A DNA stretch of 64,000 nucleotides. It comes from Paenibacillus silvisoli. GTDB lineage: Bacteria > Bacillota > Bacilli > Paenibacillales > Paenibacillaceae. The notes below the pieces were generated by a model. That model had not been told where the DNA came from. It did not search any database and was given only the letters and a program-made list of their open reading frames with translations. The stretch spans positions 2,896,001 through 2,960,000 of the forward strand of contig NZ_CP133017.1 of assembly GCF_030866765.1 (NCBI RefSeq), in the 5' to 3' direction. Position numbers and translations under genes: made by a program. Shown in pieces: positions 38,678 to 53,901 of the stretch; the first letter of the stretch is position 1, and the number at the start of each line of letters is the position of its first letter.

Positions 38678-38708
38678 AAGGCCGCGTTGGTAGCGGCCTT
38701 TTTAGTTT
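38678..38708 (+). terminator. Rho-independent terminator of the WG-repeat gene
   Basis: AAGGCCGC/GCGGCCTT stem, 7-base loop, then TTTAGTTTT. Confidence 0.88.
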
Positions 38709-38741: not shown

Positions 38742-38926
38742 CTAACGGTTGCCACAGCGCTTATTTGCTCAAAAACAGCTCTTTTTGACATCTAACGGTT
38801 GCCACAGCGCTTATTTGACCCAAATCGGCATGATTCGCTGCCCCAATCGCCAAATAACGTCGCTGGCAACCGTTAGAAATTCAAAAAGGCATTTTGAGGC
38901 GAAATAGCGCCGCTGGCAACCGTTAG
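38742..38926. repeat. 185-bp palindromic repeat element, copy 1
   Basis: Four copies of a 26-base unit that begins CTAACGGTTGCCA: forward at 38,742-38,767 and 38,792-38,817, then reversed at 38,851-38,876 and 38,901-38,926. The two forward copies start 50 bases apart, and so do the two reversed copies, with 33 bases between the halves. The spacers are also partly complementary. The same geometry occurs at 52,541. No ORF with a ribosome site is present. Confidence 0.9.
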
Positions 38927-38948
38927 AGAAAAGCCTCGCCGAACTCGG

Positions 38949-39045
38949 CGCGATCCCCGCCGCTGGCGGAAGGCCGCGATCCCCGCCGCTGGCGGAAGGC
39001 CGCGATCCCCGCCGCGGGCGGAAGGCCGCGATCCCCGCCGCCGGC
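38949..39045. repeat. 26-bp GC-rich tandem repeat, 3.7 copies
   Basis: A 26-base unit opening CGCGATCCCCGCCGCTGG starts at 38,949, 38,975 and 39,001, with a partial fourth at 39,027. Copies 1 and 2 are identical and copy 3 differs by one base. Recent slippage is likely, and the array runs straight into a terminator hairpin. Confidence 0.92.
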
Positions 39046-39071
39046 CGCGATGTTCGCGGCCTTTTTCTTTT
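39043..39071 (+). terminator. Orphan + strand terminator
   Basis: GGCCGCGA/TCGCGGCC with a 3-base loop and TTTTTCTTTT. The preceding gene already has its own terminator at 38,678, so this one ends an unknown transcript or is a relic copied with the tandem repeat. Confidence 0.75.
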
Positions 39072-52469: not shown

Positions 52470-52496
52470 AAGGCAGCCGATAGGGCTGCCTTTTTT
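52470..52496 (+). terminator. Rho-independent terminator of the frameshifted PhyH gene
   Basis: AAGGCAGCC/GGCTGCCTT stem with a 5-base loop and a run of T. Confidence 0.92.
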
Positions 52497-52540
52497 AATT
52501 ATAGCTGTTTCAGCGACGAATTCGTTGAGCCTCGCGTACG

Positions 52541-52725
52541 CTAACGGTTGCCACGCGCGCTATTTAGCCTGAAAAGGCCTTTTTAAATTTCTAGCGGTTG
52601 CCACGTACGCTATTTGGCGATTTAGACAGCGAAATAGGCCGATTCGCGCCAAATAACCTCTGTGGCAACCGTTAGAAGGAAAAAAGTGGTCTTATCGAGC
52701 AAATAAGCGCTGCTGCAACCGTTAG
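52541..52725. repeat. 185-bp palindromic repeat element, copy 2
   Basis: Forward units start at 52,541 and 52,591 (CTAACGGTTGCCAC, CTAGCGGTTGCCAC), reversed ones at 52,650-52,675 and 52,700-52,725 (ending CAACCGTTAG). Direct units are 50 bases apart, the halves 33 bases apart, and the total is 185 bases, exactly as in copy 1. The spacers differ from copy 1 but keep similar AAAA/TTTT blocks. Confidence 0.9.
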
Positions 52726-52793
52726 ATGATTTCGGCGCGCTCTTTCTCGGCCGCCAGCCGTTTCACCTATTTAATTGAGATGAAAAATAGCTA

Positions 52794-52840
52794 TTGTGAG
52801 TTTCGAAGCCCTCGTATATAATCAAATGTGCCCGGGCACA
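52794..52840 (+). promoter_or_regulatory. Sigma-A promoter and LacI-type operator of the moc-like operon
   Basis: TTGTGA (52,794-52,799), 17-base spacer and TATAAT (52,817-52,822) are followed by a perfect 14-bp palindrome, TGTGCCCGGGCACA (52,827-52,840), over the transcription start. That is a classical position for LacI-family repression. Confidence 0.85.
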
Positions 52841-52908
52841 GTAAAGCGCGTGAAACCGCTGACACCGTTTCCGGCGCTGAACCCACCATTCGATCGGAGG
52901 GAGAAATA

Positions 52909-53901
52909 ATGAGCAGATATACTGCTGAATGCCGCAAGCAGGATGGATTTACGATTGTGGCATTGACCGATTCCGCGAACGAAAGCGCAGCGGAACTGCT
53001 GCCGGAGATCGGCAACAATTTGTACCGCTTCACGACAGACGGCCGAGAAGTGATTCGAACATCGGTGTCGATGCAGACGCTTAAAGACGAGACTTTTGCC
53101 GCTTCGAAATACGGGACGCCGATTTTGTTCCCGCCAAACCGAATCCAGCAAGGACAATTCGAATTCCGCGGGCGCGGATACCAGTTCCCGATCAACGAAC
53201 CGCCTGATTATCATCTCCATGGCGAGCTGATCGTTCGCGCTTGGGAAGTGCTTGATTACGGCGCATCGGACGAGAACGGCGCATGGGTGACGAGCAGGCT
53301 GCGTTATGCGGATTACCCGGACATTCTGGCGTATTTTCCGCATGAACTCACTTTTACAATTACATATCGACTAGTGGACGGGAAGCTGTACATGGACAGC
53401 GTCATTCAAAATGACGGCGCCGATGAAGCCCCGTTCGCCTACGGCTTGCATCCGTATTTCTCACTGCCGTATGAAAGCGATAACGGCATCAAGCTGCAAG
53501 TTCCTGCGCGGGACGAATGGCCGATTACGAATTTATCGTTCGTTACCGGACAGCCTTCCCCAACGGAAACCAGCCGGCAAATCGCGCAAGCGGGCATTCC
53601 GCTCGGCACGTATCCGGAGCTTGGCTGTACACTGCTGACGCTTGATCCAGACGCGGAGCCGGTATGCCGGATCGCGCTTCCTCAGGCGGGCTACACGATC
53701 GCTTACCAGCTGGATCGCCAGTTCCCGTACGTGCTGCTGTTCCGTCCGAACTGGGATCAGGCTTTCTCGATTGAGCCGTACACCTATGTAACGGATGCCT
53801 TCAATCTGCCGTACGCGCATGAATTGACCGGCGTGCGCGGCATACAAGCAGGAGAACAATGCAAACTAACAACCGTATTGTGGGTTGAAAACGAAGGATA
53901 A
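52909..53901 (+). CDS. Aldose 1-epimerase (galactose mutarotase) family protein
   Basis: A 330-residue member of the aldose-1-epimerase fold. The sugar-binding sequence FPPNRIQQGQFEFRGRGYQFP, the first catalytic His in DYHLHGELI and ALHP-like YGLHPYFSL (second His) are present, and the C-terminal Glu is in AFSIEPYTYV. ATG 52,909 is preceded by CGGAGGGAG. It is first in an operon with a MocA-type dehydrogenase and a MocC/IolE-type isomerase, and the operator upstream matches that of the lacI gene. It probably interconverts anomers of the sugar used by the operon. Confidence 0.85.
   Translation: MSRYTAECRKQDGFTIVALTDSANESAAELLPEIGNNLYRFTTDGREVIRTSVSMQTLKDETFAASKYGTPILFPPNRIQQGQFEFRGRGYQFPINEPPDYHLHGELIVRAWEVLDYGASDENGAWVTSRLRYADYPDILAYFPHELTFTITYRLVDGKLYMDSVIQNDGADEAPFAYGLHPYFSLPYESDNGIKLQVPARDEWPITNLSFVTGQPSPTETSRQIAQAGIPLGTYPELGCTLLTLDPDAEPVCRIALPQAGYTIAYQLDRQFPYVLLFRPNWDQAFSIEPYTYVTDAFNLPYAHELTGVRGIQAGEQCKLTTVLWVENEG

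Follow-up and report, generated by a model that had tools for sequence, protein, structure and literature searches.

Interspersed palindromic repeats in bacteria are usually read as RNA hairpins or as transposon debris. The half-sites of integron attC sequences lie in an inverted arrangement. The REP/BIME (REPIN) families with RAYT (PMC3733652) are intergenic and palindromic, occur in tens of copies at gene ends, and are targets of IS110/IS1111-type insertion sequences (PMC1525189, PMC11187229). In E. coli, BIME-2 sequences are preferred sites of DNA gyrase, and the gyrase motif itself covers 130 bp, with two arms of 10.75-bp periodicity around a 36-bp centre (PMC6379681).

The 185-bp element that we describe here, from Paenibacillus silvisoli, has MITE-borne palindromic repeats as its nearest known kind, with a new architecture. 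It shares the listed properties of the REP/BIME families, but it has a rigid 50/59/50 geometry of four units that are not stem-loops, a 10-bp A/T ladder, and a host genome without a Y1 transposase. Like MITEs, it takes the form of short, discrete, non-coding units that end in imperfect inverted repeats, both in one genome of another genus (G047) and in a subset of P. silvisoli copies; unlike them, it conserves an internal core, while the ends vary as the arms do and differ by species, and neither a parental transposase (among G047 terminal-repeat matches) nor a clear target duplication was found. It resembles BIME-2 and the gyrase motif (PMC6379681) in being symmetric, more than 100 bp long, helically periodic in composition and located downstream of genes, but its period is 10.0 rather than 10.75 bp, its ladder runs through the centre, and its units conserve a specific 9-bp word. 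Integron attC sites are also struck by IS1111-type elements (PMC11187229), a resemblance that we treat only as a lead; the units of our element, in contrast, are 26 bp long and 50 bp apart.

The window analyzed is a stretch of 64,000 nucleotides, bases 2,896,001-2,960,000 of the 6.73-Mb P. silvisoli chromosome (genome code G000), and it holds two copies in opposite orientations: copy 1 at 38742..38926 (plus, nhmmer 193 bits) and copy 2 at 52541..52725 (minus in family orientation, nhmmer 184 bits, also recovered by the geometry search). In both, the 26-bp units begin at exactly 0, 50, 109 and 159, two forward and then two reverse, so the coordinates and offsets of the initial annotation are exact. 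In copy 2 the forward units occupy 52541..52566 (TAACGGTTGCCAC...TATTT) and 52591..52616, and the reverse units 52650..52675 and 52700..52725. Between them lie a 24-bp spacer with an A-block and a T-block on the 10-bp ladder (52567..52590), a 33-bp centre that contains the dyad, with A/T blocks in phase (52617..52649), and a second 24-bp spacer that mirrors the first (52676..52699). The core is flanked by a species-specific arm remnant of the GAGGCTCGTACG type, common to a subset of copies (52512..52540, with similarity extending over ∼28 bp), and by a remnant of the other arm, of the CGCCTGAATCAT type (52726..52756, ∼31 bp). A hairpin resembling an intrinsic terminator of the upstream gene lies 43 bp before the core on the plus strand (52470..52497), in keeping with the genome-wide pattern described below, and a similar plus-strand hairpin lies upstream of copy 1 (38678..38704). 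The annotation had described a geometry that is kept while the sequence drifts. The geometry is indeed kept, but the drift is smaller than it looked: 107 of 185 bases match as written, and 152 of 185 (82%) once copy 2 is reverse-complemented. Copy 1 is directly trailed by a short G+C-rich tandem repeat (GCGATCCCCGCCGCTGGCGGAAGGCC, window 38936-39048). An aldose-1-epimerase-like gene adjoins copy 2 (window 52828-53901) and also a site in another genus considered below (L084 1700-2737), perhaps by chance.

The element is present in ∼80 copies all round the chromosome, just past gene ends. A profile search of stretches from G000 returned at least 76 near-full cores as well as partial ones, and whole-genome geometry searches gave 70 forward and 67 reverse matches, whereas the reversed control gave no match; exact occurrences of the unit core TAACGGTTGCCAC number 135, compared with 0 for its reversed control pattern. 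All near-full copies keep the 0/50/109/159 offsets to within a base or two. Beyond this genome, single units (at most one mismatch) were found in 22 of 395 sampled Paenibacillales genomes, covering 10 of 50 genera and three GTDB families, a count that is too low because several genomes of one genus (g18) hold ∼10-20 BLAST matches each. Exact matches in named records all belong to Paenibacillus: P. macerans, P. oralis, P. whitsoniae, P. lignilyticus and sp. CF384. In every lineage where four units can be read, the spacing stays at 50/59/50, give or take a base or two, with a spacer identity between lineages of ∼38%; one lineage has TAACGCTTG instead of TAACGGTTG in all arms. Searches with the element against plasmids, phages and IMG/VR viral contigs gave no match, nothing in Rfam came near the gathering score, and we did not find the element described in literature on the sequence or on Paenibacillus repeats. 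Tandem arrays of the core occur at L080 2155-2708, L241 342-880 (period 257 bp) and G278:C15 428355-429850, and suggest local amplification.

Averaged over copies, A/T content is high at positions 2, 12, 22 and so on to 182, in 10-bp steps about a dyad at 92. The in-phase period-10 amplitude, calculated from spacers only, is 0.30 in G000 and 0.27 in relatives, compared with 0±0.011 in shuffled sequence and about 0 in the flanking 185 bp on each side, and for the core as a whole the period fits best at 10.0-10.05 bp. The ladder is significant in each window copy taken singly (p = 0.0004 and 0/5000 permutations), and it persists in spacers whose sequence is unconserved. The initial annotation had noted that spacer A/T blocks are complementary between the halves. 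This is correct at the aligned register (51%, compared with 23-48% when slid), but complementarity is no higher within elements than between them (51% vs 59%; 48% vs 47% in relatives), and the complementary blocks are thus the ladder read across the mirror. The static curvature that a wedge model predicts for the core is not unusual; therefore any bending would need to be induced by a protein.

Covariation between the halves, which the annotation had proposed to compute across aligned copies, is absent. In a gap-free alignment of 36 copies, analyzed by mutual information and pair counts, the covariation score is 0.065 vs 0.068 in shuffles, and pairing is 72.0% vs 72.3%. This removes the hairpin reading of the layout and does not remove selection on it. 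The suggestion that the layout is under selection is supported: it is invariant over three Paenibacillales families while spacers have diverged, and the units of resident copies resist change. Between nearest pairs of copies in G000, unit bases 1-9 are 3.0% divergent, compared with 20.6% for the spacers. Among recent copies in G047, counted where they also match by terminal repeats and with unit 2 left out, we found 1 change in 459 unit positions, 81 in 1411 arm positions and 30 in 684 terminal-repeat positions (units vs arms, p = 3e-9, with singletons alike). We considered that unit conservation might be an artefact of the search, and rejected this after retests that omitted unit 2 in G047 and each copy's best unit in G000.

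Further constraint is seen in genus g18, where at least six genomes (G038, G169, G278, G128, G324 and G142) carry the core at one orthologous site, flanked by a TPR-type gene, as read from its translation, and an aldose-epimerase-like gene; in most of these genomes BLAST homology ends at or near the core edges. In four species compared there, identity is 333/336 (99.1%) in units (bases 1-9 and 20-24), 199/288 (69%) in spacers and 349/698 (50%) in flanks (60 bp either side), with the left gene 86% identical; the flanks are near the value for unrelated sequence, 41%. Only this multi-species site was analyzed closely, and the six species pairs that it provides are not independent. Turnover that escapes observation could mimic part of the constraint result in G000, but not that at the orthologous site. 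At a site that is orthologous between P. macerans and G406, the former has four units, and in the latter unit 4 has been lost by a 49-bp deletion (L235 709-851 vs L113 4611-4797).

The placement of the cores is distinctive. Their neighbours form 1 divergent, 28 convergent and 43 co-directional gene pairs, compared with 34, 6 and 36 for other gaps at the same loci (p = 3e-11 and 9e-6; genes called with a simple ORF caller), and the median distance from the core to the stop-codon side of the neighbouring gene is 93 bp. Relative to co-directional genes the orientation of the element is random (20:23), as expected for a function of duplex DNA. A terminator-like hairpin pointing at the core lies within 250 bp, mostly within 75 bp, for 43 of 76 copies, compared with 14% of random positions; hairpins pointing away from the core are equally common (55%), so the link to terminators rests on distance and gene context, not direction.

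A mobile past, considered in the annotation, is also supported. In G047, ∼25 copies of a recently amplified 319-bp unit have sharp ends formed by a 24-bp imperfect inverted repeat (CTWAG..TCC...AATAACC) with the core in the middle, and older core-only copies lie beside them. In G000, a subset of copies shares other arms of ∼120 and ∼105 bp, now decayed. Discrete ends with terminal inverted repeats are thus present in G047, while G000 has only this subset with decayed arms, and there are none generally at the core edge. In the extended G000 subfamily (left arms of L050, L039, L141, L064 and L034), a terminator-like hairpin (AAACCCGCCG...CGGCGGGTTTCTCTTTTG) lies near one end. The closest relative, G007, is missing both window copy 2 and the gene next to it, and carries a copy at a place that is empty in the window. 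Sites occupied identically in all relatives would have spoken against mobility; sites are not always shared, yet one is common to at least six species of another genus. At four sites that coincide between G000 and G007, element similarity is not raised and orientation, by our reading of the strands, is consistent in only one; these look like independent insertions. G007 copies at orthologous sites are no more alike than random pairs, so we do not count these coincidences as evidence of retention. No consistent target-site duplication was seen outside CTWAG in 14 G047 copies, and the empty-site flanks of G000 and G007 are too diverged for comparison. The terminal-repeat-pattern matches in G047 include no autonomous partner: a 6-kb pair on G047 C31, considered as an autonomous element, proved to consist of two distinct elements. 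For L077, a lone half element that was also considered as part of one, the locus contains no partner.

The units are themselves a target of insertion. All six copies of one IS110/IS1111-type element in G000 (PF02371 and PF01548) are inserted inside a unit, at CTA^ACGG: L061 2216-3695 (G000:C1, about 3,013,215-3,014,695), L032, L048, L056, L058 and L131. The right non-coding end of this element carries GTGCCGACCGTCGCTCGCTTATTTGC, which resembles the unit and may be a seekRNA/bridge-RNA target guide. In G047, what appears to be a different IS110-like element, assigned by eye, lies in unit 1 at about the same point, and its transposase frame is apparently broken (L209 1-1849, G047:C46).

How can a repeat with a mobile past show such constraint? 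One answer is that the element is a purely selfish miniature transposon, with the units as paired transposase sites at each end, their spacing that of the transpososome, and the transposase lost or unrecognized. The sharp-ended amplified units of G047, the sites not shared between G000 and G007, the tandem arrays in L080 and L241, the extended flanks of the G000 subset and the patchy taxonomy all suit this account. We nevertheless regard it as doubtful, because the units are set back ∼65-70 bp from either end of the 319-bp amplified unit, the terminal repeats vary as the arms do while the units do not, and G047 ends matching the terminal-repeat pattern include no autonomous partner. Moreover, selfish spread alone does not predict the unit constraint at the orthologous site; units are preserved there and between nearest resident copies, and units at orthologous sites in carriers without active or recent copies are partly seen. 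Movement of a REP or REPIN family by a RAYT (Y1) transposase, the mover that had been suggested, is the least credible explanation of all. The element is palindromic, intergenic and repeated, and is struck by IS110/IS1111-type insertion sequences as REPs are (PMC1525189, PMC11187229), but no Y1 transposase (PF01797) is present in G000, G007, G014, G003, G011, G047, G324, G406, G128 or G197, and two Y1 loci examined in other carriers have, respectively, no unit and a single two-mismatch site. The layout of four rigidly spaced 26-bp units also differs, and no unit is itself a palindrome: when we looked for a stem-loop of 20-40 bp, the unit proved to be a direct word, and the fold pairs the arms.

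Two further explanations assign the element a function at gene ends. A transcript of either strand would fold into one long hairpin, serving as a transcription terminator or as protection for the 3' ends of mRNA; the cores are indeed located at 3' ends, and the window copy folds strongly on both strands (z = -8.6 and -8.1), although such a fold is expected of any inverted repeat. The absence of compensatory base changes makes this improbable, as does the pattern of matches at unit positions 10-19, which is worse across the stem (units 1/4: 0.45) than within an arm (units 1/2: 0.69). Furthermore, an RNA function offers no reason for the 10-bp A/T ladder, and a terminator-like hairpin already follows the gene upstream of each window copy, ahead of the core. 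Alternatively, the element could be a strong DNA gyrase site like BIME-2, where gyrase docks downstream of genes and removes positive supercoils. Its location beyond the ends of genes and between convergent ones fits, and so do its symmetry, with A/T periodic to either side of the dyad as it is in the E. coli motif of 130 bp, and the preference of E. coli gyrase for BIME-2 (PMC6379681). We consider this quite unlikely: the difference between a 10.0-bp and a 10.75-bp period (PMC6379681) weakens it, the signal at 10.75 in the core being about 0; the ladder crosses the core centre, where the E. coli motif has 36 non-periodic bp; and a core enzyme leaves the absence of the element from most relatives unexplained.

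The explanation that we favour, and to which we give about an even chance, is that the element is dispersed and occasionally mobile, and that its core is a helically phased four-site platform for a putative protein, kept by selection. Fixed spacing, phased A/T content, constraint at the level of the duplex and random orientation are together compatible with a protein that, bound to four units on a single helical face, would bend or wrap the DNA. Four protein copies, or two dimers, would bind the units TAACGGTTG...TATTT (forward, forward, reverse, reverse). The 50, 59 and 50 bp spacing, with A/T-rich blocks every 10.0 bp, would align these sites along the same side of a helix that is bent or wrapped, and the bound core would form a single nucleoprotein particle ∼185 bp long. 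Copies past gene ends and terminators, often between convergent genes, would likely act as a topological or architectural boundary; the role may also be insulation or transposition. The core would spread occasionally at the centre of short non-autonomous units with species-dependent arms and ends, and each settled copy would then be retained by purifying selection on its units. The patchy taxonomic distribution counts against such a platform and suits an accessory or selfish element.

On this evidence evolution keeps the geometry and helical phasing of the element, not base pairing between its halves, and the constraint is apparent among resident copies as well as across species at one orthologous site. 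We propose, tentatively, that it could represent a kind of bacterial chromosome element not described before: a stretch of ∼185 bp, wrapped much as in a nucleosome, that combines four sequence-specific contacts with a 10.0-bp A/T ladder. Varying mobile carriers would have brought tens of copies to gene ends, where the host would retain them as architectural or topological boundaries. Whether dispersed repeats are recruited as sites of chromosome architecture thereby becomes directly testable with a defined 185-bp bait; the mutational prediction, that spacer length matters modulo 10, is clear, and nature provides a variant without one unit.
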